Part shown: in pieces, positions 10,425 through 63,236 of the stretch
Position numbering within the stretch: position 1 is the stretch's first letter
Layout of the letters: each line of letters begins with the position of its first letter
Source of the DNA: Phycisphaeraceae bacterium
Lineage (GTDB): Bacteria > Planctomycetota > Phycisphaerae > Phycisphaerales > SM1A02
Assembly (NCBI GenBank): GCA_015709595.1
Contig: CP054178.1
Span: 868,001 to 932,000 of the forward strand
DNA: 64,000 nucleotides
Reading direction: 5' to 3'
Translations under genes and position numbers: made by a program
Notes under the pieces: generated by a model
The model's database searches: none
What the model was told of the DNA's origin: nothing
Seen by the model: the letters and a program-made list of their open reading frames with translations, nothing else

Positions 10425-12515
10425 TCACACCGCCGCGGTCGACAGGGCGGGAGCGGCGACGGACGCGGCCGCCGCCTGACGCTTCGACATGGCGATTCGT
10501 TCCTGCGCCGCCTCCAGGATCAGTTTCAACAGGTCGGCGTAGCGCAGGCCGGCCAGTTCGGCCATCAGGTTGAGCTTGCCGTCCCAGCACCAGCCGGGGT
10601 TGGGGTTCACCTCCAGCAGCTTGGGGACGCCATTGGCGTCGGCGCGGAAGTCGAACCGCGCGTAATCGCGGCACTGCAGCCGCTCGAAGAGCAGCAGCGA
10701 GTGATCCACCATCTGCCGCATCGTGTCCTCGTCAAGACGGGCCGGGATGTACTTGATCTGGCTCCAGTAGGGCGAATCCGGGTGCCACTTGCTCTCGTAG
10801 CCGAGAATCTTCGGCAGATCGGGGTCAAGCCCGGAGTAGTCCACTTCCATCACCGGGAGAATCCGCATGGACAGCCCCGGATTGCCCACCACGCCCACGG
10901 TGTACTCGGTGCCTGAGAGGAACTCCTGCACCAGCACCGCGCGATCGGGCAACTGCTCGCGCAGCGTTCGCAGGTACTGCACCAGTTCGCGAGGCGAGGA
11001 GACCACCGAGTTCTTGGTGATGCCGATCGAACTGTCGCCCGTGTTGGGCTTCACCAGCGCGGGGAAGACCGAAGGCAGCGTGGCGCCCTGGTCGTCCGGG
11101 TCCACGTAGGTCTCCAGCGGCACGGGAATGTCCAGCGACTCCGCGATGGCCCGCACCAGCGACTTGTTGTAGCACAGCCCCAGGCACATCGGCCCCGCCC
11201 CCGAGTACGGAATGTTGAACATCTCCAGCCACGCGGTGATGTGAAGCTCGAGCGAGGGGTTGTTGCGATACCCCTCGTCGCAGAGGTTCAGGACGAACGG
11301 CGGCGGATCGGCTCGCAGGTCCGCCAGCAGCGTGGTGTGATTGTTCAGGTAACGGAACTGGTACTCGCCCAGGTCGGCCAGCGCCCGCTTCAGCCGCTCG
11401 ATGGTGTCGAAGTCCTCGGCGTTGAACTTGCCGCCCACTTTCACCGCGTCGGGCATGGTGGGGTCGCCCATCAGCACCGTGACCCTGGGGAAGAGCGGCC
11501 CGCCCTTGGCGGCCGGCACCGGCTTGGCCGGGGCCTCGGCGGTGATGAGCATCCGGTGGGCCATCATGCCCAGATCCTGATTGCGCTCCGACTCCGTCAG
11601 CATCGGTCCGTGGTCGCGCACCTGCGTAAAGCCCACGCTCTCCAGCAGCGCGATGATGCGCGCGTGCGAATACAGCCGCTCGGCGTAGAACTGGTCCGCG
11701 ATCACCCCGCGCTCCGCGTGCACCACCACCTCGCGCGAGATCAGCCGCTCCCCGTCGCTGCTCAGCGACCGCTCGCGGCAGACGAAGTGGTTCTGGTCGA
11801 TCCATTCCCACGAGCGCTTCTCGAAGTGATCGCGCATCCAGTCGCCGTCGGTCAGGTCCAGCACCAGCATGCCGCCCGACTGGAGGACGCGCTTGATGGA
11901 GCGCAGTACGGCGATGTCATCCTCGGCCCGCTCGAAGTAGCCGAACGAGTTGCCCATCACCAGCACGCTGTGAAAGCTGCTTTCGGGCAGGCGGAACTTG
12001 CGGGCGTCGCCTTCCTGGAACGTCACGGACAGGTTGAGGTGCTTGGCCCGCTTGCGCGCCAGCCGCACCAGGTATCGCGAGCGGTCCACGCCGACGACGT
12101 TACGGAACCCGCGGCGGGCAAGCTCGAGCGAGTGCCGGCCCTGCCCGCAGCAGAGGTCGAGAACGCGGTCATTGGGTTCAATGCCCGCCGCCTTGATGAC
12201 ACGGTCGATCTCGCGCACGGTGTTGGCGTCGTTCTCCACCACGTCGCCGTCCGTCTTGAGATAGAGCGAGGTGAAGAGCGACTTCCACCACTCGGTGGGC
12301 AGGTGACGTTCGAGGTCCGAGACGGGGCCGATGGTGCGGGCTACGCCGCGCCCGCCCCGGGCGACCAGCCCTCCCGCGCCGCCGCCGAGCCCGCCCCCCG
12401 AATCCGTCGAACCATTCCCGCCTGCGCCGGGCTCGCTCTTGCCGCGGCGGCCCGCGGCGCCGGGCGCGGAGGCGGAGGAAGAGGCGGACTTCACCGTCTG
12501 ATGCTCAGTGGCCAT
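10425..12515 (-). CDS. Fusion of a SAM-dependent methyltransferase and a D-Ala-D-Ala ligase-like ATP-grasp enzyme
   Basis: A 696-residue two-enzyme fusion. After a disordered Ser/Gly/Ala-rich N terminus (1-65), residues 75-335 form a class I methyltransferase with motif I VLDLCCGQGRHSLELA (118-133) and VGVDRS. Residues 343-680 are an ATP-grasp module of the Ddl type: FVLNLCDEG, FNIPYSGAGP, KPNTGDSSIG and LVQEFLSGTEYTVGV, ending with the metal site DFRADANGVPKLLEVNPNPG, where Asp, Glu and Asn are retained. Ddl-like enzymes form amide bonds through an acyl phosphate. Both halves look catalytically intact, so the product probably methylates and ligates one small molecule or envelope precursor; the substrate is unknown. 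It lies next to, but may be separate from, the hldE/lpxK operon. Confidence 0.82.
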   Translation of the reverse strand: MATEHQTVKSASSSASAPGAAGRRGKSEPGAGGNGSTDSGGGLGGGAGGLVARGGRGVARTIGPVSDLERHLPTEWWKSLFTSLYLKTDGDVVENDANTVREIDRVIKAAGIEPNDRVLDLCCGQGRHSLELARRGFRNVVGVDRSRYLVRLARKRAKHLNLSVTFQEGDARKFRLPESSFHSVLVMGNSFGYFERAEDDIAVLRSIKRVLQSGGMLVLDLTDGDWMRDHFEKRSWEWIDQNHFVCRERSLSSDGERLISREVVVHAERGVIADQFYAERLYSHARIIALLESVGFTQVRDHGPMLTESERNQDLGMMAHRMLITAEAPAKPVPAAKGGPLFPRVTVLMGDPTMPDAVKVGGKFNAEDFDTIERLKRALADLGEYQFRYLNNHTTLLADLRADPPPFVLNLCDEGYRNNPSLELHITAWLEMFNIPYSGAGPMCLGLCYNKSLVRAIAESLDIPVPLETYVDPDDQGATLPSVFPALVKPNTGDSSIGITKNSVVSSPRELVQYLRTLREQLPDRAVLVQEFLSGTEYTVGVVGNPGLSMRILPVMEVDYSGLDPDLPKILGYESKWHPDSPYWSQIKYIPARLDEDTMRQMVDHSLLLFERLQCRDYARFDFRADANGVPKLLEVNPNPGWCWDGKLNLMAELAGLRYADLLKLILEAAQERIAMSKRQAAAASVAAPALSTAAV

Positions 12516-33611: not shown

Positions 33612-36218
33612 TCACTCATCACCGCCGATCCGGTCGAAGTACCGCCGGATCAGCCGGTGATATCGCCTGGGCACGGCGTTTTCGCTGATGGCCTGCTCGG
33701 CGGCGCGGCGGGCGTCACGCGCGGCGGGCAACCCCCCCGCTCCGCCCGCCCCGGCGCGGTCCGTGCGGCCGGGCTGACCTTCGAGCTTCTCGTCGGTCAG
33801 CCACTCGGCGAGCGTGCGCTCATCGCCCTGCTGGCGCAGGTCGAGCGAGTCCCACCCCGCGCCGGGCTCGGTCGGCGGCGGGTCGCGCCGCGCCGCGGCG
33901 TGCTCGCCTGCGCCCGCCGTGGAGCCCCCGGAATCACCACCGGCGCCATCATGACTCCCGCGCGATGAATCATCGCGCCGGCTCTGCTCGCGGGCGTACT
34001 CGCGGGCCCACTGCTCCAGTTGCTTCCGCTCCTCGGGCGTCAACCGCTCGGCGAGTTCGCGGGCGCGCTGGCGAAGCTCCTCGCTGTCGCGAGCGGTCTG
34101 CTCGCCTCGACGGGCCCGTTCCTCGGCCCGTCGAAGAATGTCCTCCAGGCGCTCGCCGGGGGCACGATCATCGGATGCTTCGCCACCCTCCTCGCCGCCG
34201 GGTTGCTCTCCCGGTCGAGCACCCGGTTGACGACCATCCTGCGTACCCGCGGGGTCGGGCGCGGGGCGATCGCCTGGTTGCGCCTGGCCGGGCTGGGATC
34301 GGGTTCCCGGCTGCGCAGGGTCGTTCGCCTGACCCTGTCGCCCGACGGGCTGTTCGCCCCGCCGCGGATCACGCTGATCGGGCGGCGACTGCTCGCCCGC
34401 CCGATCCTGTTGCGGCTTCGGCGGTTGATTAGGATCGGTTGACTTGGGATCACCGGACTTCGGTTCGCCTGACTGCTGTTGCTGTTGCTGTTGCTGCTGT
34501 GATTGCTGCGACGATGGGTCACCCGATTTGGGATCGCCTGACTTCGGGTCGCCTGAGTGCTGTTGCGACTGCTGCTGACCCGGCTGCTCGGTCTGCTGCT
34601 GGTGCTGCTGCCCGGGTTGCTGCGACTGGTCCTGCTGCGGCGGCGGCTTCGACGGATCAGCCGGATTGCCCGTATCGCCAGGCCTGGAATTGGGCTGCCG
34701 CTCGCCCTGTCGCGGTTGATTTGGCTGAACCGGTTGATTGGGCTGTGATGGATCGCGCTGGGCGGGCGGCTGATCCTGACGCGGCTGGTTCGATGACCCG
34801 GGATCACGCTGGCTCGGCTCGTGCTGGTCCCGCGTGCGATCACTCGCATCCCCTTGCGGTGGCGACGAATCACGCTGCTCCGTCTCGTCCGCCAGTTGAT
34901 CCAGCGCCTCGGCGGCCTCCCGGGCCTCGTGGTTCGCCTGCTCGCGAGCGGCGGCCCGTTCCCGCTCCGCGGCGATCTCGCGGGCCAGGCGGCTGGCGAC
35001 TTCATCATCCACGCCCTGTTCGCGCAACCGGCGGGCGAGCTCGTGCTCGTCCGGGAGCGTTGTCGGTGAAGGTTGTGCAGGATCAGCCCGTTCGCCGACC
35101 TCGTCGCGCGGTTCATCGCCCGACGCTTCGGGATTCGTCAACCGGCGCGCCGTCTCCGCATCCACGCCCTGCTCCTGCAGGGCGCGCTGAAGCGCCTCAC
35201 GCCGCGCCGCGTCGGACTCGGCGGCACGGGCCGAGGCGTCGCGCAGGTTCTCCGCGAGCCGGCGCAGGTCATGGGCGGCCTGCTCGCGGATTGCGGGGTC
35301 GGTCTCGCCGCCGAGCGATTCCATCGCCTCGCGTGCCCGGGCGGCATCGCGCTCACGAAGGGCCTCGCGCAGGACGCTGGTCAGTTCGCTGGACCGCTCG
35401 CGATCCCGCGCCGCCGCCTCGGCGAAGCGGCGCGAGAGTTCCTCCGACGCCAGCCGCTCACGCGCCGCCTCGCGCTCCATGCGGCGGGCGATTTCATCCA
35501 TGCGGCGCGCGGCGTCGTCGCGGGCGCGGGCGAAGTCGTCCGGCTTCTGCCCATCCCGCTTCATCTGCTCGGCGAGCTGACGCAGCACATCCGCCTGCTC
35601 CCCGGGCACGGGAGACGCTTCGCCCGGCTGATCGAGCGAGGCGAGCGCTTCCTCCACCTGCCGAGACGCCGCGAGGCGTTCCTGCTCGAACGCCGCGGCC
35701 TCTTCGGGCGTGAGCGCCGCCTCGGCGCTGCGCGACCAATCCACGGGCGGCAGCAGCAGCACGCCCGCCGCCACCGCCAGCGCGCCCGCCCCCGCCCAGC
35801 GGGCGGCGACGGGAAGCCGCAGCGGCTCGGCCCGGCGCGGGTCGGCCTGATGCGCCGCTCGCTCGGCGTCCTGCATGGCCAGCAGGGCGAAGTCGCTCTC
35901 GCGCACGTGCCCCGCTTCGATGGCCTTCGCCGTACCCACGCGGTCGGCCAAACCCAGCCGCTCATCCACCAGCACGGCGACGCGGGCCTTGGACGGCGCG
36001 GTGAACGCGCCCCAGATCGCCCCGGCGACCGCGCCAACTCCGATCACCCCCGCGTGAACCGCCCACGGCCAGACCGCCCCGGAGAGCCGCTCGACGAGCA
36101 GGGCGATGATCGATGCGCCCGCGCCGATCGCCGCCCCGCGCGCGGCGAAGTCCGCCGCGCGGTTCAGGACCACGCGACGACGGGTGGCGGCGATGAGGTG
36201 ATTGAGGGGGGAGGGCAT
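33612..36218 (-). CDS. DUF4175-like membrane protein with Gln-rich linker
   Basis: An 868-residue protein with three hydrophobic segments near the N terminus, a long charged coiled coil of Arg/Glu/Ala heptads (about 150-430), a low-complexity Gln/Pro/Ser/Asp region with short SGDPK repeats and a nine-Gln run (about 470-650), and a conserved-looking C terminus, YHRLIRRYFDRIG. The end resembles planctomycete DUF4175-type proteins usually found beside MoxR ATPase and BatA genes, which are absent here. ATG 36218 is preferred because a dispersed repeat (36274-36301) lies in the upstream extension. The function is unknown. Confidence 0.6.
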   Translation of the reverse strand: MPSPLNHLIAATRRRVVLNRAADFAARGAAIGAGASIIALLVERLSGAVWPWAVHAGVIGVGAVAGAIWGAFTAPSKARVAVLVDERLGLADRVGTAKAIEAGHVRESDFALLAMQDAERAAHQADPRRAEPLRLPVAARWAGAGALAVAAGVLLLPPVDWSRSAEAALTPEEAAAFEQERLAASRQVEEALASLDQPGEASPVPGEQADVLRQLAEQMKRDGQKPDDFARARDDAARRMDEIARRMEREAARERLASEELSRRFAEAAARDRERSSELTSVLREALRERDAARAREAMESLGGETDPAIREQAAHDLRRLAENLRDASARAAESDAARREALQRALQEQGVDAETARRLTNPEASGDEPRDEVGERADPAQPSPTTLPDEHELARRLREQGVDDEVASRLAREIAAERERAAAREQANHEAREAAEALDQLADETEQRDSSPPQGDASDRTRDQHEPSQRDPGSSNQPRQDQPPAQRDPSQPNQPVQPNQPRQGERQPNSRPGDTGNPADPSKPPPQQDQSQQPGQQHQQQTEQPGQQQSQQHSGDPKSGDPKSGDPSSQQSQQQQQQQQQSGEPKSGDPKSTDPNQPPKPQQDRAGEQSPPDQRDPRRGEQPVGRQGQANDPAQPGTRSQPGQAQPGDRPAPDPAGTQDGRQPGARPGEQPGGEEGGEASDDRAPGERLEDILRRAEERARRGEQTARDSEELRQRARELAERLTPEERKQLEQWAREYAREQSRRDDSSRGSHDGAGGDSGGSTAGAGEHAAARRDPPPTEPGAGWDSLDLRQQGDERTLAEWLTDEKLEGQPGRTDRAGAGGAGGLPAARDARRAAEQAISENAVPRRYHRLIRRYFDRIGGDE

Positions 36219-36273
36219 GGGCTGTCGGCTTGTGAGTGGTTGGGATCGGTTCTCGGTTGTCAGTTCTTGCGTT

Positions 36274-36301
36274 GTGAGCCGCGACCGTGAGGGAGCGGAT
36301 G
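36274..36301 (+). repeat. 28-bp dispersed repeat, second copy
   Basis: This begins GTGAGCCGCGACCGTGAGGG and continues AGCGGATG; it is identical to the copy at 7740-7767 read on the other strand. It lies in the divergent intergenic region between the DUF4175-like gene and the nuclease gene. Confidence 0.85.
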
Positions 36302-36476
36302 GGCCGGGAAACGACACCCATCCCGGCGCACCCGATACGCCCTCACCATCTCATACGACAATCGTACGGTCGGGACAGCCCGATCCGACGATTTTTCTGC
36401 CCGCGACGAGGCCAGCCCCTCAGTTCCATCCTGGCAAGTCGGATGCATCGGACTGTTTTTGACCCGCACTTAGGGA

Positions 36477-37088
36477 ATGGTCGATGACGGCCACATGGGC
36501 CTCGAACTCATTCCGAACGACATTCGGGACAAGTACACGATCGAGGAACGCGACCACGCATGTGCGATTCTCAAGGAGGACTTCCCAAGTGAGTTCGACG
36601 ACCTGTTGGAGTGCCTTCGGCGGTTTACCCTGAAGAAGAGCCAGATTCTGGAGCCGGGCGGCAGAAAGTCGCGCATCGCCTCGACGATCGATGCCTTTCT
36701 GCACGAACGGGGATGGAGAGAAAAGTCGTTCGACACCAAATACGTGGTGGATGATCGCGAGATTCCATCACCAACGCACAGCATCGACAACTTCAAGAAT
36801 CGCGTCGGCGTCGAGGTCGAGTGGAACAACAAAACTGAATTCTACGATCGGGATCTCAATAACTTCCGGCTGCTGCGCCAACTGCGGGTGTTGTCCGTCG
36901 GCGTGATCATCACGCGACTGAGTGAGCTGCAGCAGGCGGTCTTTGACCCGCTGGGCAAGGGGAGCTCCTACGGAGCATCCACCACGCACTGGGACAAACT
37001 CATTCCGAAAGTGGATGGCGGAGGAGCGGGAGGGTGTCCCTTGCTGCTCGTCGGGATGGGGCTCGCCTGCTACGACCCGAATGCGTGA
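36477..37088 (+). CDS. Type II restriction endonuclease, BglII/BstYI family
   Basis: A 203-residue predicted nuclease. The candidate active site is D104 and then, eight residues later, E113-V-E115 in NRVGVEVEWNNKTEFYDRDL. This is the spacing of the D84/E93/Q95 catalytic set known for BglII. Other BglII-family features are the SPTHSIDNFKNRVGVEVEWN core and the C-terminal GSSYGASTTHW and DGGGAGGCP motifs. It should cleave DNA at a short palindrome, probably GATC-containing if it follows BglII (A^GATCT) and BstYI (R^GATCY). It converges on and overlaps the methylase gene by 89 bp. The codon and base pattern is less GC-rich than that of its neighbours, suggesting transfer. Confidence 0.82.
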   Translation: MVDDGHMGLELIPNDIRDKYTIEERDHACAILKEDFPSEFDDLLECLRRFTLKKSQILEPGGRKSRIASTIDAFLHERGWREKSFDTKYVVDDREIPSPTHSIDNFKNRVGVEVEWNNKTEFYDRDLNNFRLLRQLRVLSVGVIITRLSELQQAVFDPLGKGSSYGASTTHWDKLIPKVDGGGAGGCPLLLVGMGLACYDPNA

Positions 37089-37683
37089 AGCCGTTGTACG
37101 TCGGAATCAGGGGGCGACGCTGCGCGTAGGTCTCGATCTCGTTGCCCCACTGCGTCCAACCCTCCCGTGGCAGGCGAGCGAACAACTCCAGATACGGTCC
37201 CGGGCTGCATCCCTCAACGATGTCGTAGATCTCGTCCGGCTTCTTGGAGTGCTCCTCCTTGCGCGTCCGGATCAGGTTGACCTGCGTTCGACCCGGCTTC
37301 AAGGTGCGCAGGCGACCCTTGACGCCGAACAGAAGGAGTTCGGTGACGTTGCGGAAGTAGAAGCCCACCCCACGACCGTCCGGACCGCCATCCTTGCGCA
37401 CCTTGTACCAGACGATGTTCGTCTTGTACGTGAATCCCCACGCTTCCATGATCGTGAGTCCCTCCTTGAGCAAGGCGTTGGGACACCACAAGTAGAGATG
37501 GCTCTGGTCCCGGCCCAGTTCGCCAATGGGCAGCGCGGCGATCTCGTCAAACGACATGGTCGGATATCGCCGCAGGCGGCGGTGCTCCGGTGCCATCTTC
37601 CCAGTGCGGTTTGTGAATCGCCACGGCGGATCGATCAGGATTGCACCGAATCGTTCCTTGATATCGAGAGCAGACTGACTCAT
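37000..37683 (-). CDS. MT-A70 family adenine-N6 DNA methyltransferase
   Basis: A 227-residue methylase. The catalytic motif DPPW is at residues 18-21, followed by YLWCPNALLKEGLTIMEAWG, FTYKTNIVWYK and RNVTELLLFGVKG. The family includes M.MunI, and members methylate adenine at N6. Its position convergent to a BglII-like nuclease strongly suggests that it protects host DNA from it. The two coding regions share 89 bp at their 3' ends, so the last 29-30 codons of each are constrained by the other. The C-terminal 40 residues (Arg-rich) are unlike the family. Confidence 0.88.
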   Translation of the reverse strand: MSQSALDIKERFGAILIDPPWRFTNRTGKMAPEHRRLRRYPTMSFDEIAALPIGELGRDQSHLYLWCPNALLKEGLTIMEAWGFTYKTNIVWYKVRKDGGPDGRGVGFYFRNVTELLLFGVKGRLRTLKPGRTQVNLIRTRKEEHSKKPDEIYDIVEGCSPGPYLELFARLPREGWTQWGNEIETYAQRRPLIPTYNGFTHSGRSRRAPSRRAARDTLPLLRHPLSE

Positions 37684-37714
37684 GGCGGCTCCATGCTCGA
37701 CGGCCCAACAACAG

Positions 37715-37743
37715 ATCCTAACAGACTGCGAATGCCGAGTCTA
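37715..37743 (-). promoter_or_regulatory. Candidate promoter of the MT-A70 methylase gene
   Basis: On the minus strand TAGACT (37743-37738), 17 nt and TAGGAT (37720-37715). The leader would be about 25 nt. Both boxes match at 4 of 6 positions. The rest of the 231-bp gap 37684-37914 shows no gene. Confidence 0.35.
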
Positions 37744-37914
37744 TCCGTTTCGGCCTGATTCGGGTCAGGAATCACAGCCAATCCACACGAGAATCGCTAA
37801 GGGGTGCCTGGTTCGTGCGTCTCGTATCACAGGGGGAAACCCGTGCGCGCGTTTCCCATCGGGAACCCGCCGCACTCGATCCCCTGCCCGCACCATCCGA
37901 CGGGAGGACATTCC

Positions 37915-40332
37915 ATGCGGCCGACCCCTCGCTTCGTCGCCCTGTTCCTGGCGGTTCTGTCCGTTCTCGCCCTCGCCGCGCCAGCCCGCGGCTCCGGCCT
38001 GCTGGTGCCCAGCGACCGCAACCTGCCGCCCCTGCGGATCACGGACCACCTGGTGGACGTCAAGATCCACGATCAGGTGGCCCTGACCACCCTCACCCAG
38101 ACCTTCCGCAACGACACGAATCAGCGGCTGGAAGCCACCTACATCTTCCCCCTGCCGGAAGAGGCCGATCTCACCAACTTCCAGATGACCTTCAACGGCA
38201 AGATGGTCGAGGGCGAGGTGCTGCCCGCGGACGAAGCCCGGCGGATCTACGAGGCCATCGTGCGCCAGGCCAAGGATCCCGGGCTGATCGAGTTCATCGG
38301 CCGCCGCCTGCTGCGGATGCGGGTCTTCCCCGTCGAGCCCAAGAGCGATACCACGATCAAGGTGTCGTACCAGCAGGTGTGCCGCCCGCTCTCGGGCATG
38401 ACCGGCTACCACTATCCGCTGCGCACCACAGGCACGGGAGGCCGGGCGTACGGCACGGTGCGGTTCGCCATCGACCTCGATACCGCCAAGCCGCTCAAGA
38501 ACATCTGGTCGCCCACCCACTCGGTGGAGATCGTGCGCGACGGCGAGTTCAAGGCCAAGATCGCCTACGAAGCGGCGGGCGGCTCGCTGGAAGACGACTT
38601 CATCCTGCTCTACTCCAACGACTCCGCCGACCTGGGGCTGTCGGTCATCGCCCACAAGCCCAGCGAGGGCGATGCGGGGCACTTCCTGCTCATGCTCACG
38701 CCCAAGCAACTGTGGCCGGACGAGGAGTACGTGCCGCAGGACGTGGTCTTCGTCATCGACACCAGCGGCTCGATGGCGGGCGAGAAGATCAAGCAGGCCC
38801 GCGAGGCGCTCAAGTACTGCGTCGAGCAGCTCAAGGAGAACGACCGCTTCAGCATTGTGCGCTTCTCCACGGGGTTCGATGTGCTCTTCGAGCAGGTCGC
38901 GCCCGCCAGCAAGGAGAACAAGGACCGCGCCCGCGCCTTCATCGACAAATTCCAGGCCGCAGGGGGCACCAATATCACCGACACCCTCGTCCACGTGGCC
39001 GGGATGAAGGCCAATCGGCCCGAGGGAGATGACCGACCCTATGTCGTGGTGTTCATCACCGACGGTCAGGGCAATCACACGCCCGACCAGACGATGGAGG
39101 CGCTGAAGAAAGTGATTGACGATCGCGGGCGAGACGCCCGCGCCGACGACTGGAGAGTCTTCCCCTTCGGCGTCGGGCACGATGTCAACACGCTGCTGCT
39201 CGATCGCCTGGCCACCACCTACCAGGGCCGCCCCGTGTACGTGCAGCCGGGTGAGAACCTGGAACTCGTGCTGGGCGACTTCTTCGGCACCATCTCACAG
39301 CCGGTGCTGACGGGGCTGACGCTCACACTGCCCGACATCGGCGTGACGGAGCGCTTTCCTGTCACGCTGGGCGACCTGTATCACGGCCAGCAGCTCACCA
39401 TCGCGGGCAAGTTCGAGCGGGCTCAGACAGGGCCCGTGAAACTCTCGGCGATGCGGGCGGGCAAGCGCGTGGAGTTCTCATGGCCCAACGTGGCGTTCAC
39501 CAGCACCGAGTCGGCCGCCTACGTACCGTCCATCTGGGCGGGGCGGAAGATCGGCTGGATTCTCGATGAAATCCGCCAGCGCGGCGAGAACGAGGAACTT
39601 GTCAAGGAAGTCATCGCGCTCAGCCAGGAGTACGGCATCCAGACGCCCTACACCAGTTGGCTCGTCGCGCCGGAAGGCCGTCCGGGTCAGCCCATCCCCA
39701 TGCCGCGCCCCATGGACCCGAGGCGACGGGCCGAGCAGTTCGAGCGCCTGCGCGACCTGCCGGTGGACGCCCGTCCGGGCGTGCCGGGCGGCGGCGGCGC
39801 CCCTGCCAGCGACAGTATCGGGCGGGGCGGCTCAGGCGGCGGAGGCGGGTTCGGCGGCGCGGCAAGAGAAGGCGGCGACCGGGGCATCACGCTCGACGAA
39901 GCCGAGGACGCCATGAAGCAGTCCGCCGGGCGGGCCGCGACCATCCTTTCCGAGTACCAGCAGCGCCTGCGCGAAAGCACCAGCGCGGATGGAGCTCGGC
40001 TGAACCAGAACGAACTGGCCACGCGCAAGATCGCCGGCAGGTGGTACAACCGCGTCGGTCCCTTCCTCGTGGATGCCGATTTCGACGCCAGGATGCGGAC
40101 CGTACTGGTGCTCTTCGCCTCGGAGGCGTACTTCGAGTTCGTCGCGTCCCGCCCGGCCCTGAAACCCGTGTTCGCCGCCAGCCGCAACGTTGTGATTCCC
40201 GTCACAAAGTCGCTGGCGGTGGTGGTGGTCGATTCCCGGCCTGCCGAGGGGGAAAAGGGCGTGGAAGTGATCGAATCGTTTTCCGAGGAAATGAGGGAAC
40301 AACTGGGGCTCGGGAACAGTATTGTTCCATGA
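37915..40332 (+). CDS. VIT and von Willebrand A domain protein, secreted
   Basis: An 805-residue protein like the bacterial inter-alpha-trypsin-inhibitor heavy-chain group. A Sec signal peptide ends near APARGS, and ATG 37915 has a GGGAGG ribosome site. The VIT domain (about 30-160) shows EATYIFPLPEEADLTNF. The VWA domain carries an intact MIDAS, D282-T-S284-G-S286. The C-terminal half has a beta region, a Gly-rich linker (GGGGAPAS and later Gly runs) and a final helical and beta domain. It is probably a periplasmic or surface adhesion/scaffold protein. The loop with DDRGRDARADDW is encoded by a hairpin repeat at 39124-39142. Confidence 0.85.
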   Translation: MRPTPRFVALFLAVLSVLALAAPARGSGLLVPSDRNLPPLRITDHLVDVKIHDQVALTTLTQTFRNDTNQRLEATYIFPLPEEADLTNFQMTFNGKMVEGEVLPADEARRIYEAIVRQAKDPGLIEFIGRRLLRMRVFPVEPKSDTTIKVSYQQVCRPLSGMTGYHYPLRTTGTGGRAYGTVRFAIDLDTAKPLKNIWSPTHSVEIVRDGEFKAKIAYEAAGGSLEDDFILLYSNDSADLGLSVIAHKPSEGDAGHFLLMLTPKQLWPDEEYVPQDVVFVIDTSGSMAGEKIKQAREALKYCVEQLKENDRFSIVRFSTGFDVLFEQVAPASKENKDRARAFIDKFQAAGGTNITDTLVHVAGMKANRPEGDDRPYVVVFITDGQGNHTPDQTMEALKKVIDDRGRDARADDWRVFPFGVGHDVNTLLLDRLATTYQGRPVYVQPGENLELVLGDFFGTISQPVLTGLTLTLPDIGVTERFPVTLGDLYHGQQLTIAGKFERAQTGPVKLSAMRAGKRVEFSWPNVAFTSTESAAYVPSIWAGRKIGWILDEIRQRGENEELVKEVIALSQEYGIQTPYTSWLVAPEGRPGQPIPMPRPMDPRRRAEQFERLRDLPVDARPGVPGGGGAPASDSIGRGGSGGGGGFGGAAREGGDRGITLDEAEDAMKQSAGRAATILSEYQQRLRESTSADGARLNQNELATRKIAGRWYNRVGPFLVDADFDARMRTVLVLFASEAYFEFVASRPALKPVFAASRNVVIPVTKSLAVVVVDSRPAEGEKGVEVIESFSEEMREQLGLGNSIVP
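39124..39142. repeat. 8-3-8 hairpin repeat inside the VIT-VWA gene
   Basis: CGCGGGCG-AGA-CGCCCGCG has perfect 8-bp arms and is followed by CCGACGAC, resembling the GCCGCTGAC that follows the other copies. It is translated in a loop of the VWA domain. Confidence 0.65.
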
Positions 40333-45377: not shown

Positions 45378-46769
45378 TCATCCCACCGAAGTCTGATCGC
45401 GGCGCTCGCCCTTGCGGAAGGGCGACTGCTCGATGAGGGGTTCGAGCTCCGTGCCTTTGGCGGCCCGCACCAGGATGGGCGTGGTCATGACGGTGGTGAG
45501 CACCGCCATGAAGACGAGCATGCAGAAGACGCTGGATGGGATGACGCCCAGGTCGTGCCCCACGTTGATGACGATGAGTTCCATCAGGGCGCGGGCGTTC
45601 ATCATCACGCCCACGCAGCAGGATTGACGCCACGACAGCCCCCCGAACCTGGCCGCCAGCGTGCAGCCGCCGAACTTGCCCGCAATGGCCACGGCGGACA
45701 CGGCGATGGCGAAGCCCCAGAGCATCCACCCTTCGAGCGTGCCCACGTCGGTGCGCAGCCCCGTGTACGTGAAGAAGATGGGCAGAAAGAACGCGGTGAC
45801 GAAGCGGCTGAGCTGGCCGCGCACCGCCTCGCGGAACCCGTGCTCGCCCGACAGCGTCGCCCCCAGGATGAACGCGCCGAAGATCGAGAAGATGCCGATC
45901 AGGTTGGTGGCGATGGCGCAGAGGAACATGATGATGAGCAGCGCGGCGAGGTCCACCAGCCCCAGGTTCCCGCCGCCGCGCTTCACCGCCGCCTTGGCCC
46001 ATCGCTTGAGCATCGGGCGGGCGATGAAGATCATGCCCAGCGCGAAGCCGATGGACTCGGCCAGCATGAGCAGCGTGTCGCCGGGGTGGAAGGCGGATCG
46101 CACCATCGCCGAGACCGCGGCGAGCAGAATCCATCCGCAGGCGTCGTCAATCGCCGCGCTGGTGATGGTGATGGCGCCCAGCCGGGAGCGCGCGATGTCC
46201 AGCTCCATCATGATCCGCCCCAGCACGGGGATGGCGGTGATGGACATGGCGGTACCCATGAACAGGGCGAAGCCGCGCAGGTCGATGGTCGGCGCCACGT
46301 GAGGGTGCATCGCCATCGCGAGTCCATAGCCCATGCCGAAGGGCAGGATGATGCCGGTGATGGAGATAAGCAGCGACGCCTTGCCGCTGCGCTTGACGTG
46401 GGAAAAGTCGAACTCCAGTCCCACCAGGAAGAGCAGGAAGATCAGCCCCAGCTGGCTCATCACGCCGAAGACGGGGCCGACCTCGGGGTTGAAGACGCTG
46501 GTCCAGGCATCACGGACGGACTCCATCGCCGGCTCAGGCAGCACCAGCCCCAGCATGCGCAGCATGGATGGGCCGAGCAGCAGCCCCGCGAGAATCTCGC
46601 CGACCACGATCGGCTGCCCCAGCCGCTGGAAGATGGCCGCGAACACGCGGGCCGCCGCGATGATCACGACGAGTTGAATGAGAACGATGAGGAGTGTGTC
46701 CTCGACCTCGCTCAGCGCCAGGATCGCGCCGGGCAGCCACGGGTTGGCGGGGGAAAGTGCCATGCCCAT
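45378..46769 (-). CDS. CPA2-family cation:proton antiporter
   Basis: A 463-residue inner-membrane transporter with around 12 hydrophobic segments. Family motifs: GQPIVVGEILAGLLLGPSML in an early helix, FLLFLVGLEFD, SITAIPVLGRIMMEL, and the ion-binding AAIDDACGWILLA with its Asp pair. It exchanges Na+ or K+ for protons (KefB/Nha-like). No C-terminal TrkA domain is present. The start ATG 46769 or 46763 gives a normal N terminus. It is divergent from the S74 surface-protein gene. Confidence 0.92.
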   Translation of the reverse strand: MGMALSPANPWLPGAILALSEVEDTLLIVLIQLVVIIAAARVFAAIFQRLGQPIVVGEILAGLLLGPSMLRMLGLVLPEPAMESVRDAWTSVFNPEVGPVFGVMSQLGLIFLLFLVGLEFDFSHVKRSGKASLLISITGIILPFGMGYGLAMAMHPHVAPTIDLRGFALFMGTAMSITAIPVLGRIMMELDIARSRLGAITITSAAIDDACGWILLAAVSAMVRSAFHPGDTLLMLAESIGFALGMIFIARPMLKRWAKAAVKRGGGNLGLVDLAALLIIMFLCAIATNLIGIFSIFGAFILGATLSGEHGFREAVRGQLSRFVTAFFLPIFFTYTGLRTDVGTLEGWMLWGFAIAVSAVAIAGKFGGCTLAARFGGLSWRQSCCVGVMMNARALMELIVINVGHDLGVIPSSVFCMLVFMAVLTTVMTTPILVRAAKGTELEPLIEQSPFRKGERRDQTSVG

Positions 46770-46868
46770 CGGGTTCTCGACGGGGAAGGATGGCGAAGCA
46801 GGTGGGGAAGTCAAGCACTGCAGCACGGGAGACCACTCTGTGGCCCGATGCTCAACAGGGCGTCGCCC

Positions 46869-46896
46869 TTGCATGGAGCGCAATCCTTGGTACAAA
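46869..46896 (+). promoter_or_regulatory. Candidate promoter of the S74 surface-protein gene
   Basis: TTGCAT (46869-46874), a 16-nt spacer and TACAAA (46891-46896), predicted leader about 33 nt, with GGGAGG at 46924-46929 before ATG 46936. Confidence 0.45.
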
Positions 46897-46935
46897 TCGC
46901 AAGTCATCCCACATGCCGTGGGCGGGAGGTCCGAC

Positions 46936-49900
46936 ATGAAGCGTCGATGTGTTCGTGTGCGTCCGGTCGTTGGCTGCTCGATCGTGGCTCTGGCAATGGG
47001 TGCGGCGGCGCCCGGCTGGTCGGCCTGCTGGTCGCCAACCGTGTTGGCCGCGTTGCAGGATGGAGCGCGGCGGGGCGATCACCAATTCGCGCCCTCCTCG
47101 AGCTTCACCTACCAAGGCATGGTGTGGTGGGAAGGCCTGCCGGTCACGGAGGTGCTGGACTTCCGGTTCGTCCTGTTCGATGCGGAGAGCGGCGGGTTCT
47201 CAACGAGCGACGTGATCGAGGCATGCGATGTCGCCATGTTCGACGGCCGCTTCGCGGCGCGGCTGGACTTCGGCTGGGAGGCCTTCGCCGGCGGGCCGCG
47301 CTGGCTGGAGATTCAGGTTCGGCGCAGCGGAAGCGATGAGCCGTTCATCGCCCTCACGCCCCGGCAGGCCATGCGGCTGACGCCATTCGCCATGTTCGCG
47401 CTGGATGTGCGCGTCAATGTGACGGGCGAGGGGGCGACGGAGGGCCATGGTCTTCACGCGGGGGATTCGACCGACGCTTTCGCCCCTGGTGATGGCCACC
47501 GATCCGTTCAGCCAACCGGCAGCGACGCCAGCCGCGGGTTCGGATTCATCGGCGGCGTCGGACCCGGAGGACCAGGTTCGCCTGTCGGCCCCGGCGGGCG
47601 AGGAAGCGGCGACCTTGCACGTCCAGGTCACCCGGTGATCCCGGGCAGGGGCGATGGCCTCGGAGCCGTTCGGCCCACGTCACCCGGCGAGCCGGATGGC
47701 GGCGGCTCGTGGCTCCTCACCGGTAATGCGGGGACGAATCCCGGCACGAACTTTCTCGGGACGACGGACAATCAGGCCTTCGAGATCCGCGTGAACAACC
47801 GGAGGGCACTGCGCATCGAGCCGAAGAACGCCGGGCCGAACGTCATCGGCGGCATCGCCGCCAACAGCGTTCTCTCCAACGTGGTGGGCGCAACCATCGC
47901 GGGCGGCGGTTCCAATCAGCAGCCCAATTCCATCACGGGGAACTCCGGCACGATCTCCGGTGGTCGAGGTAACCGGGCGGATCTCCTCGCGGCCGTTGGA
48001 GGCGGACTGAACAATCAGGCCTTGTCGGATCGAACGACAATCGGTGGCGGCAACGGCAACATCGCCACCGGCAACTTCGCCACCATCGGTGGCGGCAACC
48101 TGAATCAAACCAACGACAACTTCGCCGTGGTGGCCGGCGGCTCGGAGAACAGCGCCGCGGGCAAGTACGCAGTCGTCAGCGGCGGCCGGCAAAACTTCAC
48201 CGGCGGCATCGACTCCACCATCGGCGGAGGAAGGCAGAATCGGATCATCTCGTCGTTCAGCACCATCGGCGGCGGGGGCGGTGAGTTCAACTCGGTCATT
48301 GGTTCCGGCCCGAACCTCGTGCACGACGACTTCGGAACCATCGGCGGCGGTTCACTCAACAACGTCGGGCTGGATGACGGGAATCCACAGAATCAGCGGT
48401 TCGCCACGATCGGTGGAGGCACCGGCAACCGAGCGATCGGTTCCACCTCAACGGTCGGAGGCGGCGGCGCCAACGAGGCAATTGGCAGTGGTTCCGTGGT
48501 GGCGGGCGGTGAAGTCAACGTGGCGCAGGGTGGGCGCGCCACCATCAGCGGTGGACGCTTCAACGAAGCCCGCGCGGACTTCGCCGTGATCGCGGGCGGC
48601 GGAGGCGACGAGAGTGAAGTCGCGCAGACCGGGCCGAACCGCGTCTTCGACCGCCACGGGGTGATCGGAGGCGGCGCTCGCAATGTTGCTGGCACCAACA
48701 ACGCTAACCCGGATGACGCCATTTTCGCCACAGTCGGCGGCGGACACGCCAACCAGGCCACCGGTCTCAAGTCCACGGTCGCCGGCGGAGACGGCAACGT
48801 CGCCTCAGGCAATCGCGCTTTCGTGGGCGGTGGCGAGGTCAACAAGGCGACGGTGTTCGGCGCCGTGGTCGTCGGCGGATTGCAGAACACCGCGAGCGGA
48901 GACGCATCCTTCGTTGGCGGGGGTTCCGCCAACCAGGCGACTGCGTCGAGTGCCTTTGTCGGCGGCGGTGTGACAAATCTCGCTTCGGGCGGCCTCGCGG
49001 CGGTCGTGGGCGGTGAACTGAATCGCTCAGAGAGTTCGAGTTCATTCATCGGCGCTGGGCGCTCCAACACCGTCAGCGGCGAGGAGGCCGTCATTACCGG
49101 TGGATTCCGCAACCAGACCAGCGGACGACGCGGATTCAGCGGAGCCGGCGACTCAAACACCGTGACAGGCGAGAACGCCGCGGTTGTCGCTGGGCGCAAT
49201 AACATCGCGTCGGGCGTCGGCGCCTTTGTGCCGGGCGGGGTGGCCAATGCCGCGCGCGGGGCTTCCAGTTTCGCCGGCGGCAACCGGGCCGTCACGCAGA
49301 ACGCCCACGAAGGGGCATTCGTGTGGTCAGGCCGGGTAGCCCCCGGTGTGGACTTTGCGTCCACAGACCCCGGCCAGTTCCTGATCGACGCGCCGGGTGG
49401 GGTGGGCATCGGGACCAGCGCACCCCAGGCCGACCTGCACATCCGTGGGGCCGGTGGTCTCGGCTCGATGCTCATCACGCCCAGCAACGCCAACACGAAC
49501 AGCGAGATTTTTCTCGCTGAACAGCAGTCCAAATCCTTCGGCATGATCCTGCGCTACGAGGGCAACCTGAATCAGTTTCAGATCATTGCCCAGTCCAACT
49601 TCACCGAGTCCACACCGCTGCTTTCGATCGCCCGGGCCACGGCGCCACGCGTGGGCATCGGCAGGACGGCGGCGACCAACGTCCTCGAAGTGCAGGGCAA
49701 CGCCAGCAAGACCACCGCAGGCGACTGGCTGGCCAACAGCGATCGGCGCATCAAGACCGACATCGAGAGCATCAGCGACGCGCTAAGCACGCTGGACCGG
49801 GTGCGCCTCACGTCGTTCCGTTACACCCCGGAGTACCGGCTGACGCGTCCCGAGATCGAGGATCGACGCTACCTCAACGTCATCGCACAGGAGTTCGCCA

Positions 49901-50220
49901 CGGTCTTCCCCGAGCACGTGAAGAGCAGCGGCGAATCGCTGCCGGACGGCAGTGAAATCCTGCAGGTGGATGCCTACCCCCTCACGATCTACTCCGCCGC
50001 CGCGATCCAGGAGCTGCACGCGATGGTGCGCGAACAGGCCCGTCGCCTGCTCGCGGGCGAGACCTCGCTGACCGAGGTCAGGCGTGAACAAGTCTTGGCC
50101 GCCGAGTCCATTCGCACCCTGCGGAGCGAGGTGGAGTCGCTCCGTGCCCGCAACGCCGAACTGGAATCGCGGCTGTCGCGCCTGGAGGCGATGATGTCCA
50201 CCCTGCCGCGGGAGGAATGA
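46936..50220 (+). CDS. Giant surface protein: YadA-head-like repeats with S74 autocleaving chaperone
   Basis: A 1094-residue secreted protein with a signal peptide (VGCSIVALAMGAAAPGWSA). Residues about 40-160 form a beta-rich N-terminal domain, then a Gly/Pro-rich linker. From about 319 to 790 there are many repeats of the form GGG-x-x-N-x-A-x-G-x-x-A-x-V-x-GG, the left-handed beta-roll pattern of YadA-type trimeric adhesin heads. Residues 935-1045 match the peptidase S74 intramolecular chaperone, with the cleavage-site SDRRIKTDI (Ser935) and YLNVIAQEFATVFPEHV. The last 45 residues are a coiled coil. This resembles phage tail-spike maturation applied to a bacterial trimeric fibre. No autotransporter beta-barrel anchor is visible. 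Confidence 0.85.
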   Translation: MKRRCVRVRPVVGCSIVALAMGAAAPGWSACWSPTVLAALQDGARRGDHQFAPSSSFTYQGMVWWEGLPVTEVLDFRFVLFDAESGGFSTSDVIEACDVAMFDGRFAARLDFGWEAFAGGPRWLEIQVRRSGSDEPFIALTPRQAMRLTPFAMFALDVRVNVTGEGATEGHGLHAGDSTDAFAPGDGHRSVQPTGSDASRGFGFIGGVGPGGPGSPVGPGGRGSGDLARPGHPVIPGRGDGLGAVRPTSPGEPDGGGSWLLTGNAGTNPGTNFLGTTDNQAFEIRVNNRRALRIEPKNAGPNVIGGIAANSVLSNVVGATIAGGGSNQQPNSITGNSGTISGGRGNRADLLAAVGGGLNNQALSDRTTIGGGNGNIATGNFATIGGGNLNQTNDNFAVVAGGSENSAAGKYAVVSGGRQNFTGGIDSTIGGGRQNRIISSFSTIGGGGGEFNSVIGSGPNLVHDDFGTIGGGSLNNVGLDDGNPQNQRFATIGGGTGNRAIGSTSTVGGGGANEAIGSGSVVAGGEVNVAQGGRATISGGRFNEARADFAVIAGGGGDESEVAQTGPNRVFDRHGVIGGGARNVAGTNNANPDDAIFATVGGGHANQATGLKSTVAGGDGNVASGNRAFVGGGEVNKATVFGAVVVGGLQNTASGDASFVGGGSANQATASSAFVGGGVTNLASGGLAAVVGGELNRSESSSSFIGAGRSNTVSGEEAVITGGFRNQTSGRRGFSGAGDSNTVTGENAAVVAGRNNIASGVGAFVPGGVANAARGASSFAGGNRAVTQNAHEGAFVWSGRVAPGVDFASTDPGQFLIDAPGGVGIGTSAPQADLHIRGAGGLGSMLITPSNANTNSEIFLAEQQSKSFGMILRYEGNLNQFQIIAQSNFTESTPLLSIARATAPRVGIGRTAATNVLEVQGNASKTTAGDWLANSDRRIKTDIESISDALSTLDRVRLTSFRYTPEYRLTRPEIEDRRYLNVIAQEFATVFPEHVKSSGESLPDGSEILQVDAYPLTIYSAAAIQELHAMVREQARRLLAGETSLTEVRREQVLAAESIRTLRSEVESLRARNAELESRLSRLEAMMSTLPREE

Positions 50221-57229: not shown

Positions 57230-57302
<73 letters not shown>

Positions 57303-57321
57303 CTTCCGTAAACGACGCCGA

Positions 57322-60433: not shown

Positions 60434-60820
60434 ATGAGCCAAGCAACTCAATCCAACGTGGCGCGAGCCGCCGCACCCGATGCACACCTGACGCTGGCCC
60501 AGGCCTCCCGAATCGCGCCGGGTCGACCCTCCACCAACTGCCTGTGGCGATGGTGCCGTCGAGGCGTCCTGGCCCGCAACGGCGAACGGGTGCGCCTTGA
60601 GCACATTCGAGCCGGCGGCAAGATCTTCACCACGGCGGCGTGGGTGGATGAGTTCGGCCGCCGGCTGGCGGATGCGGACGCCGAGTACTTCGCCGCCGAC
60701 GAGCCATCACTCGATTCACGCGACACAGTGGCTCCCTCCGCTGAGCGAACTTGTCGGCGCGCCCACGACGGAGACGCGCACGCTGCCGTCGTGCGCGCCC
60801 TCGACGCCGCTGGGCTGTGA
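60434..60820 (+). CDS. DUF1580-like small HTH protein
   Basis: 128 residues. The core RPSTNCLWRWCRRGVLARNG and RLEHIRAGGKIFTTAAWVDE fit the planctomycete DUF1580 family, a MerR/excisionase-like HTH fold. The C-terminal 40 residues are divergent and may be frame noise. It lies 22 bp before the primase gene and is probably co-transcribed; a role as an excisionase or replication regulator is an inference. Confidence 0.65.
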   Translation: MSQATQSNVARAAAPDAHLTLAQASRIAPGRPSTNCLWRWCRRGVLARNGERVRLEHIRAGGKIFTTAAWVDEFGRRLADADAEYFAADEPSLDSRDTVAPSAERTCRRAHDGDAHAAVVRALDAAGL

Positions 60821-60842
60821 CCTGGAAAGGAGTCGCGACGTG

Positions 60843-63236
60843 ATGCCCTCTGACGAGGACATTTCGGTAGTCCGTTCCACCGTGCCGGAGGCACTGCGCA
60901 ACCGCGCACAGTGGGTCTGCTGGCGATACATCACGCGCGGCGGCAAGCGGACGAAGTGTCCTGTGAACGCTCGGGACGGCGGCCGGGCCGACTCGACAGA
61001 CCCGACCACATGGGCGACGTTCGATGAGGCGGTGGCGGCGTGGAAGTCGGGCGGCTACGCCGGCATCGGATTCGTTTTCGCGGAGGACGACCCCTACTGC
61101 GGCATCGACCTGGACGAGTGCATCGATGAGGCTGGGGCCATTGTCCCGTCAGCGCGAGAGATCATCGAGTCTTTGAATTCGTACACCGAGATATCGCCGA
61201 GCGGGCGCGGCGTGAAGGTCTTCATAGCGGGACGCAAGCCCCAAGGCGTCGGCTGCAAGTCGAAGGCCATCGCCGGGTTCAAGGAGACGGAAGTCTACGA
61301 CCAGGAGCGGTTCTTTACCGCCACAGGGCAGCACCTGGCCGGTACGCCTGAGGGCGTCGAGGAGCGGCAGGACGCGCTCGATGTGCTGTGCGCTCGGCTG
61401 TGGCCCAAGAAGCGCAAACCGCACCTGAACGGTACCGTCGCAGCGGGCGGGTTCGACGGCGATGACGAAACCCTCATCGAGCGCGCCAGCGCCGCGAAGA
61501 ACGGCGGCCGCTTCGCCAAGCTCTGGGCGGGCGACATGTCGTTGCACGCTGACGATCACAGCGCGGCTGACCAGGCGCTCTGCAACCTGCTGGCATTCTG
61601 GACCGTCAAGGACGCTGTGCGCATGGATCGCCTGTTCCGGCGGTCTGGGTTGTTCCGCGAGAAGTGGGACCAGAAACGTGGTGCCCGCACGTACGGGCAG
61701 ATGACCATTGCGAAGGCCATCGAGAACTGCCCGGCGACGTACTCGCCGCGCCGCCGTACCGCACCGTCGTCATCGGCATCTGGCGATCCCTCGCAGTCGG
61801 AATGCGGCGAGGGCGATGGCCTGCTCGTCGCTCTCGGTCAGAAAGACCCAGTGACGGGCCGTCTCGTGCTTTCGCCTCGGCGCACGCTGCCGACTGCCGA
61901 GGCGTATGTGCGCGAGTTCAACCAGCACGCCGAGGGCCGGACGCTTCAAGGATACGGTGGCCTGCTCATGGAGTGGCGCGGGAATCGCTATTGCCAAGTC
62001 GAGGAGGAGTGGATCAAGCAGCGGCTCCTGCCGTGGCTGCACAAGGCACTGCGGTATGTGCTCAACAAGAGTACTGGCGAGATGGAGCTGTTGGACTTCG
62101 AATCCAACCCGACGACCGTCAAGCAGGCGCTCGACACCATTCGGTCGCTCGTTCACCTGCCTGCATCGACGGTAACGCCAACTTGGCTCGACGGCGGCAA
62201 GGATCGTCCGCCCGCGCTCGAACTGCTCCCGTGCAAGTCGATGAACTTGCACATTCCGACCGGGCGCATCCTCGCGCCGACACCGGCGTTGTTCACCACC
62301 AACTCGCTCGACTTCGACTACCACCCCGATCCCGAGTCGCCGGAGCGGTGGATCAAGTTCCTCGAGCAGTTGTTCGGGGATGACCTGGAATCCGTGGAGC
62401 TGCTCCAGGAATGGATCGGTTACTGCCTCACCGCCGACACGAGCCAGCAGAAGATGCTACTTCTCGTAGGGCCGAGGCGGTCGGGCAAGGGCACGATCGG
62501 GCGCGTCATCATTCGCCTCGTCGGCGCGGGCAACGTGGTGGGGCCGACCACGAGCAGCTTGGCCGGGCCTTTCGGCCTCCAGCCGCTGATTGACAAGTCG
62601 CTGGCGATCGTCAGCGACGCCCGATTCAAGGGCGACAACGTCGGTACCGTGGTCGAGCGTTTGCTGTGCGTTTCCGGCGAGGACACGCTGACCATCGACC
62701 GCAAGTTCTTGGGGGCAGTCAGCATGAAGCTGACAACCAGGTTCATGTTCCTCACGAACGAACTGCCCCGCCTCAACGACGCCAGCACGGCGCTGGCCGG
62801 GCGATTCCTCGTGCTCCGCCTGACGCAGAGCTTCTATGGGCAGGAAGATCCCACCCTCACCGACCAGCTACTGGTCGAGCTGCCCGGCATCCTCCAATGG
62901 GCCATCGAGGGGTGGAAGCGCCTGCGGGCGCGCGGCCGGTTCGTCCAGCCCAGGAGCGGGGAGGACGCCATCCGCGATATGGAAGACCTGGCCTCGCCGG
63001 TCGGCGCCTTCATTCGCGACCGCTGCGTCGTCGGCGTCGGGCATCGGGTTTGGGTGGACGACCTGTACAACGCCTGGAAAGCGTGGTGCGAGGCGGACGG
63101 GCGCAACGCCGTCAGTACGAAGCAGGCCTTCGGACGTGACCTCATGGCCGCCGCGCCGGGAGTGTCGCGCCGTCGCGGAACGGGGATGGTGGCGTTCTAC
63201 GAGGGGATCGGCCTCCGAACGGAGGTGCCCGTATGA
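60843..63236 (+). CDS. Phage/plasmid P4-type primase with SF3 (D5-like) helicase
   Basis: 797 residues. The N-terminal part (about 1-200) resembles a primase-polymerase fold, with YCGIDLDECID carrying acidic residues and SGRGVKVFIAG. A helical middle leads to the D5_N region and an SF3 ATPase with Walker A GPRRSGKGTIG and the later TRFMFLTNELPRL segment (sensor 1-like). Such proteins start and drive replication of P4-like satellites and islands. ATG 60843 follows AAAGGAG; GTG 60840 is an alternative. The frame is open further upstream, but that part overlaps the DUF1580-like gene. Confidence 0.88.
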   Translation: MPSDEDISVVRSTVPEALRNRAQWVCWRYITRGGKRTKCPVNARDGGRADSTDPTTWATFDEAVAAWKSGGYAGIGFVFAEDDPYCGIDLDECIDEAGAIVPSAREIIESLNSYTEISPSGRGVKVFIAGRKPQGVGCKSKAIAGFKETEVYDQERFFTATGQHLAGTPEGVEERQDALDVLCARLWPKKRKPHLNGTVAAGGFDGDDETLIERASAAKNGGRFAKLWAGDMSLHADDHSAADQALCNLLAFWTVKDAVRMDRLFRRSGLFREKWDQKRGARTYGQMTIAKAIENCPATYSPRRRTAPSSSASGDPSQSECGEGDGLLVALGQKDPVTGRLVLSPRRTLPTAEAYVREFNQHAEGRTLQGYGGLLMEWRGNRYCQVEEEWIKQRLLPWLHKALRYVLNKSTGEMELLDFESNPTTVKQALDTIRSLVHLPASTVTPTWLDGGKDRPPALELLPCKSMNLHIPTGRILAPTPALFTTNSLDFDYHPDPESPERWIKFLEQLFGDDLESVELLQEWIGYCLTADTSQQKMLLLVGPRRSGKGTIGRVIIRLVGAGNVVGPTTSSLAGPFGLQPLIDKSLAIVSDARFKGDNVGTVVERLLCVSGEDTLTIDRKFLGAVSMKLTTRFMFLTNELPRLNDASTALAGRFLVLRLTQSFYGQEDPTLTDQLLVELPGILQWAIEGWKRLRARGRFVQPRSGEDAIRDMEDLASPVGAFIRDRCVVGVGHRVWVDDLYNAWKAWCEADGRNAVSTKQAFGRDLMAAAPGVSRRRGTGMVAFYEGIGLRTEVPV

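Follow-up and report, generated by a model that had tools for sequence, protein, structure and literature searches.

The locus described here raises the question of why a nuclease gene and a methylase gene that face each other share 89 bp of coding sequence at their 3' ends, and whether this overlap is a device that balances their expression. The locus lies in the window, the whole 64,000-nucleotide stretch of DNA from a Phycisphaeraceae bacterium that was analyzed. The ORF check recovered both genes exactly where the first-pass annotation had placed a convergent restriction-modification (R-M) pair with an 89-bp coding overlap, and the nuclease residues it had singled out (D104, E113, and E115) are present. 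The features of the locus are as follows.

36477..37088, + strand: ORF of a predicted BglII/BstYI-family type IIP restriction endonuclease, 203 aa, ATG start, TGA stop; probable start at 36495 (197 aa); based on Pfam PF09195, the AF2 model, and identity to R.Nph3I
37000..37683, - strand: ORF of a predicted MT-A70-family DNA adenine methyltransferase with a DPPW motif, the presumed cognate modification enzyme, 227 aa, ATG start; based on PF05063, PADLOC MTase_II, and identity to M.Nph3I
37000..37088, no strand: coding overlap of the 3' ends of the nuclease and methylase genes, 89 bp; based on stop-codon positions and locus comparison
37070..37072, - strand: antisense stop (CTA on the + strand) within the nuclease Cys-Tyr codons, in the frame of six relatives with a 19-bp overlap and not in the methylase frame of the window
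37000..37002, - strand: methylase stop (TGA on the - strand, TCA on the + strand) from the nuclease Leu-Ile codons CTC ATT; based on the sequence and locus comparison
37713..37718, no strand: RGATCY site with the sequence AGATCC, ~30 bp ahead of the start of the methylase gene; from the site scan
36851 (nuclease gene) and 37227 (methylase gene): further RGATCY sites in the pair; from the site scan

The nuclease probably starts at the ATG at 36495, which gives a protein of 197 aa with the putative catalytic residues D98, E107, and E109. An ATG is present at this position, residue 7 of the 203-aa ORF, in 12 of 12 other close convergent nucleases aligned, and R.Nph3I starts at the same position. 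Among the 11 intact close convergent relatives, 8 show similarity from residue 7 onward; the exceptions are L018 and L028 (residue 5) and L022 (residue 1). The 89-bp overlap is independent of the choice of start codon because it is set by the two stop codons.

The first-pass annotation had called the nuclease BglII/BstYI-like and had named a profile search against the BglII family as the check. This search gave a match to Endonuc-BglII (PF09195) at an E-value of 4.8e-39 and 134.1 bits (cut-off 26), covering profile positions 1-162 of 163. The AF2 model, built from 21 sequences, has a mean pLDDT of 91. Structure comparison matched the model with BstYI (2p0j_B; Z 18.0, 165 residues, 2.8 Å) and BglII (1d2i_A; Z 17.5, 155 residues, 2.6 Å), then with BamHI (Z 14.5) and OkrAI (Z 13.3), and the following row had a Z of only 5.8. 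The identity in the structural alignments with BstYI and BglII is 18-20%, and 20% for BglII itself. When solved structures were searched by sequence, with the nuclease alone or as a profile, neither of the two appeared at E up to 10; the predicted fold found both. NCBIfam gave zero matches for the nuclease or the methylase at E up to 1. The Pfam match and the modeled fold together bear out the family assignment.

All 25 aligned nucleases carry D98 and E109 (D104 and E115 of the 203-aa ORF), and at E107 (E113) they have E or D. Residues of this PD-(D/E)xK-like arrangement are catalytic in the family, and the same role is predicted for D98, E107, and E109. From the motif spacing, we take a Q of BglII to align with E115 of the window nuclease. 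The third catalytic position is E in the window nuclease, whereas it is given as Q for BglII (PMC4081073).

The MT-A70 adenine methylase proposed for the opposite strand is confirmed by a match to Pfam MT-A70 (PF05063) above the curated cut-off (E 7.5e-30, 104.5 bits, cut-off 23.9). The methylase also matched PADLOC MTase_II (E 6.4e-88), and its D18-P-P-W motif is invariant in 15 of 15 aligned sequences. It is encoded by the single MT-A70 gene of the genome (3.84 Mb, one contig).

To our knowledge, the nearest tested relatives of the pair are R.Nph3I and M.Nph3I of phage NrS-3. The nuclease shares 59% identity with R.Nph3I (113/193 columns), and the methylase shares 64% with M.Nph3I (127/197 columns). 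R.Nph3I is reported to cleave all four forms of RGATCY, and M.Nph3I to produce RG(6mA)TCY, with GGATCC strongly preferred (PMC10734518). Because both genes are related to these enzymes, the pair is very probably an RGATCY type IIP system, and its most likely specificity is RGATCY with m6A protection as RG(6mA)TCY. The earlier claim of one R-M pair acting on a GATC-containing palindrome thus gains support through the relatives, in which the methylase site is not unlike the nuclease site. An MT-A70 or D12-type methylase lies within the locus in 44 of 46 nuclease rows. We consider it quite unlikely that the nuclease cleaves another site, such as AGATCT only, and that the tested relatives mislead. 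BglII, of the same Pfam family, cleaved only the AGATCT probe among those reported (PMC10734518), and the relatives of the nuclease go as low as ~30% identity, so specificities may vary; however, the high identity to R.Nph3I, for which all four probes were cleaved, stands against 20% to BglII, and the methylase is likewise close to M.Nph3I.

The site counts in the genome add little to the RGATCY assignment. RGATCY is at 0.687 of expectation in 400 kb of the window genome (514 vs. 747.9), at 0.936 in 400 kb of G095, a genome without a nuclease match, and at 0.943 in G258, a genome with a tandem pair. GATC palindromes outside RGATCY are also low in the window genome (TGATCA 0.49 and CGATCG 0.76). 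The depletion of RGATCY is moderate and not specific, and it is weak support for the specificity, because TGATCA is low too and the pair-bearing G258 is not depleted overall. As a separate observation, several 6-bp palindromes are strongly short in a sample of the window genome (L051-L070), for example GTCGAC at 0.18 of expectation, and CTAG is at 0.14.

The pair is compact. It also looks acquired, as had been suggested, because in four same-family genomes (L116-L119) homologues of both flanking genes adjoin without the nuclease or the methylase. These four are among 10 other-genome loci examined (L116-L125). The flanks, two divergently oriented genes, are a 901-aa gene (33612-36317), whose homologues in the four empty-site genomes show 28-34% identity, and a VIT/VWA gene (~37915-40332), with 54-57% identity. 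In the remaining six of the 10 loci, no homologue of the 901-aa neighbor was seen. The distribution of the genes is patchy. The methylase matched 2 of 41 genomes, the window genome and G415, a genome from the same order in which the nuclease is present as well, in tandem with the methylase; no methylase was found in 24 other same-family genomes searched. The nuclease matched 12 of 392 genomes of the phylum, counting the window genome, and two of these 12 matches are weak. The best twelve nuclease matches among genome contigs are from Planctomycetota and Acidobacteriota. The 2-kb bin of the pair has a G+C content of 0.622, the lowest in the window.

Some other features of the window are recorded here. 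The 901-aa ORF is rich in Q, P, D, and R and has no Pfam match at an E-value of 0.001 or below. A tRNA-Ala gene lies at 57230-57303, and 3.3 kb downstream is an 879-aa ORF (60597-63236) with NrS-1-polymerase-like, DUF5906, and D5_N domains. Such domains are of the primase/helicase type found in mobile elements, and an element is possibly integrated at this tRNA-Ala gene. A 1180-aa ORF (46678-50220) has a C-terminal Peptidase_S74 (endosialidase chaperone) domain, and a 696-aa ORF (10425-12515) has fused class I methyltransferase and D-Ala-D-Ala-ligase C-terminal (ATP-grasp-like) domains.

The arrangement of the two genes varies among relatives. The 46 nuclease rows comprise the window, six genome loci, 35 genome-contig loci, two phages, and two plasmids; L007, L008, and L011-L015, which are fragments or weak nuclease matches, are left out of this table. 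The partner is an MT-A70 methylase in 33 rows, 16 of them convergent and 17 tandem. An unrelated methylase with a DPPY motif, presumably D12-like, is the partner in 8 divergent rows, 2 tandem rows, and 1 convergent row, and 2 rows have no methylase in reach. The two plasmid copies of the DPPY methylase are annotated as "DNA adenine methylase." The 26 viral loci include 15 convergent with MT-A70, 8 tandem with the nuclease first, 1 tandem with the methylase first, 1 divergent with DPPY, and 1 without a methylase; L152 is the same phage as L112. In a 67-row tree, from which L032, L044, L046, and L048 were removed as too short, the convergent label has to change 8 times, and supported branches force at least 6 of these changes; shuffled labels average 22. 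Convergence has therefore been gained or lost several times. The window falls in a group of 15 convergent rows with moderate support only (84/52).

The nuclease family is accompanied by the D12-like DPPY methylase in other lineages (L029-L031, L034-L039, L113, L114, and L140). Of these 12 D12-type loci, 11 have a small HTH gene, and the methylase type tracks the regulator.

Every intact close convergent locus has an overlap (12 of 12, the window and 11 relatives), and three antisense frames are used. This count leaves out L023, L032, and L024. L023 and L032 are close relatives without overlap, and both look decayed: the methylase N-terminus of L023 was not found and the frame of L032 breaks. 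Alignment of the C-terminal ends, proposed earlier to see whether the overlap is conserved, indicated that it is not conserved as an element. It is 19 bp in six loci (L016, L020, L021, L026, L027, and L028), 89 bp in the window, L017, L018, and L025, 83 bp in L019, and 42 bp in L022.

These lengths can be read from the nuclease sequence. Of 15 close loci, 14 encode a Cys-Tyr dipeptide close to the C-terminus of the nuclease; L024, whose nuclease ends differently, is the exception. Because TGY TAY always contains YTA, this dipeptide guarantees that one antisense frame has a stop no farther than 19 bp in. When synonymous codons were redrawn with the nuclease protein fixed, the antisense stop stayed at 19 bp or less in 14 of 14 loci and in all draws (to two decimals). 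In the methylase frame of the window, the stop comes from Leu-Ile, and 96% of 4000 redraws gave 89 bp or more in that frame; thus, 89 bp is not longer than the chance expectation. The methylases share a conserved end, W..WG...Y..Y. The distance from the W codon to the nuclease stop is 62-72 nt in seven of the 12 loci (68 nt in the window; also L017, L018, L019, L020, L022, and L025), so the conserved end fills the interval and leaves no space for the methylase to stop short of the nuclease gene. In the other five (L016, L021, and L026-L028), the distance is 81-108 nt, which leaves some room, and the overlap is still 19 bp.

Taken together, it is likely that the pair is a BglII/BstYI plus MT-A70 type IIP system, most likely RGATCY/RG(6mA)TCY, and that its overlap is passive read-through, not a dedicated element. 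The two R-M genes are packed tail-to-tail with little or no spacer, and in the window the conserved methylase end arrives right at the nuclease stop. The methylase then reads on along the antisense strand of the nuclease gene to the first antisense stop in its frame, as the comparison of frames shows, and the overlap of 19, 42, 83, or 89 bp thus depends on the frame.

Long convergent overlaps are often suspect. In public genomes, 124 of 178 convergent overlaps >60 bp were judged misannotations and 54 possibly true, and 3,035 convergent overlaps were counted among the well-characterized overlaps of 338 genomes (PMC2478687). A sequencing error or frameshift that deleted the methylase's own stop is nevertheless extremely unlikely here, because other assemblies have the same 89-bp overlap (L017, L018, and L025) or an 83-bp overlap (L019), and the methylase alignment stays in frame through the end of the conserved domain. 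We also regard it as very unlikely that the methylase tail within the overlap is a functional protein extension. It is a 28-residue open frame shared with the nuclease gene, and its identity shows a slight excess in the 83-89 bp class: 0.337 vs. 0.303 +/- 0.029 in redraws (P 0.14) when the final, class-defining residues are excluded, and 0.369 vs. 0.309 (P 0.032) when they are included, a value that may be inflated because shared codon ancestry, which the redraws ignore, pushes in the same way. The equivalent antisense frame in the six loci not using it has an identity of 0.294. However, relatives stop at different lengths with mostly unrelated residues, the Pfam domain is over at residue 182, and M.Nph3I ends shortly past the domain. 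As an observation on the 19-bp class, L026-L028 have a similar last-residue pattern in common.

The codons point the same way as these arguments against the tail. In the 83-89 bp class, the wobble positions of the overlapping nuclease codons all coincide with second positions of methylase codons, and constraint on the methylase tail would thus freeze the nuclease codons. Same-residue codon identity in the overlap was 54/170 (0.318), compared with 76/198 (0.384) just upstream and 82/212 (0.387) at the equivalent codons in the 19-bp class. On the other side, the final five codons of the nuclease, common to all these overlaps, have a higher codon identity (115/247, 0.466) than codons 31-60 from the nuclease end (714/1870, 0.382), though one similar to that of codons 61-100 (1176/2542, 0.463). 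The test covers the 83-89 bp class alone, five sequences, and weak constraint could escape it. At that resolution, the long methylase tail is not detectably under selection.

The remaining alternative is that the overlap, or the packing without a spacer, is a selected device in which pairing of the 3' transcripts or polymerase collision links the nuclease to the output of the methylase. Several observations are in its favor. The overlap is present in every intact close locus, and the five loci with some room for a methylase stop yet run 19 bp into the nuclease gene. The convergent label changes 8 times on the tree. The spacing looks tight: among 29 measurable convergent MT-A70 pairs, host and viral (31 less L024 and L157, whose methylases are broken or distant), 19 have overlaps of 4-113 bp, 4 abut without gap or overlap, and the other 6 have gaps of 1-39 nt, so that all 29 fall between -39 and +113 bp (plus for overlap). 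Junctions without a terminator-like site in either direction number 25 of 29. In 36200-38000 of the window, no sigma-70-like promoter or terminator was detected, and shuffles give 0.4 and 1.1. HTH genes were searched with three queries supplied by three of the 12 D12-type loci. They were found beside 0 of 25 tandem and 2 of 29 convergent MT-A70 pairs, and in window positions 34501-39700 there was no tblastn match to the three queries, which, being derived from D12-type loci, could miss a distant regulator. MT-A70 pairs thus appear to be mostly without such an HTH regulator, in either orientation. Antisense control is also described for EcoRI and Eco29kI (PMC12707154, PMC3874152).

Against this stand the variation of overlap length and frame among close relatives, the codons of the long overlaps, which are not extra-constrained, and the tail, which is not clearly conserved. 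On these grounds, the earlier proposal that the 89-bp overlap is a regulatory device is not supported. Tandem MT-A70 pairs also do without the HTH gene, so a convergent overlap is not needed for that, and the antisense mechanisms reported for EcoRI and Eco29kI rely on internal reverse promoters, not on a 3' coding overlap (PMC12707154, PMC3874152). We therefore think it improbable that overlap or packing is a selected device of this kind. Because the junction lacks a terminator-like site, transcription of each gene may continue into the other, so antisense complementarity of the two transcripts is possible there; this is true of any convergent pair without a spacer. The overlap length is no evidence for antisense control. 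The tight tail-to-tail packing could be selected. One version, in which the terminator-free junction makes the transcripts mutually antisense and balances nuclease and methylase without a regulator, with the packing selected and the overlap length merely tolerated, is speculative and rather unlikely.

The viral pairs L142, L143, and L150 show another form of the junction, in which a single CTAG is the stop codon of both genes.

A switch by promoter methylation through the AGATCC site about 30 bp before the methylase start was also considered, and no pattern is claimed across loci. In 13 other loci, an RGATCY site before the methylase is in a similar place only in L022; in L021 it is nearer the conserved domain, and in L019 it is far upstream. 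An RGATCY site is found 13-18 nt upstream of the nuclease start in 3 of 15 loci (L018, L019, and L028).

The preferred reading, passive read-through, makes the pair a real and ordinary member of a known defense type, with an overlap that is unusual but explained. The long antisense coding overlap is accounted for by the reading frame and by a stop that is hard-wired in a Cys-Tyr dipeptide, and overlap length should not be taken as regulation. If tight packing matters, it would offer a regulator-free route to balance a lethal nuclease and its antidote. This overlap was not described in the titles and abstract openings, from mostly open-access literature and without REBASE, on convergent or overlapping R-M genes.

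Several known systems resemble the pair in part. R.Nph3I and M.Nph3I (NrS3_08 and NrS3_07 of Nitratiruptor phage NrS-3) belong to the same nuclease and MT-A70 methylase families, but their genes are tandem, nuclease first, with a 12-nt gap, whereas the window genes are convergent with an 89-bp overlap. With the window pair, this family, whose tested representative comes from a phage and is tandem, gains a member that is convergent and chromosomal. BstYI and BglII have the same fold as the window nuclease model, and the window nuclease matches the BglII Pfam family. In AhdI, Esp1396I, and Kpn2I, the nuclease and methylase genes are convergent, as in the window, but in these systems a C protein is encoded along with the nuclease, whereas the three HTH queries detected none at 34501-39700 of the window, and the published account of their gene order does not mention a coding overlap in the parts describing them (PMC5333194). 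Long convergent overlaps in other prokaryotes also exceed 60 bp between convergent genes; in E. coli, the phases of convergent overlaps agree well with a stop-codon-mutation model, and stop-codon loss fits those cases (PMC2174442). The window pair differs from them in that its partners presumably form one functional unit and its relatives display several frames and lengths of the same overlap.
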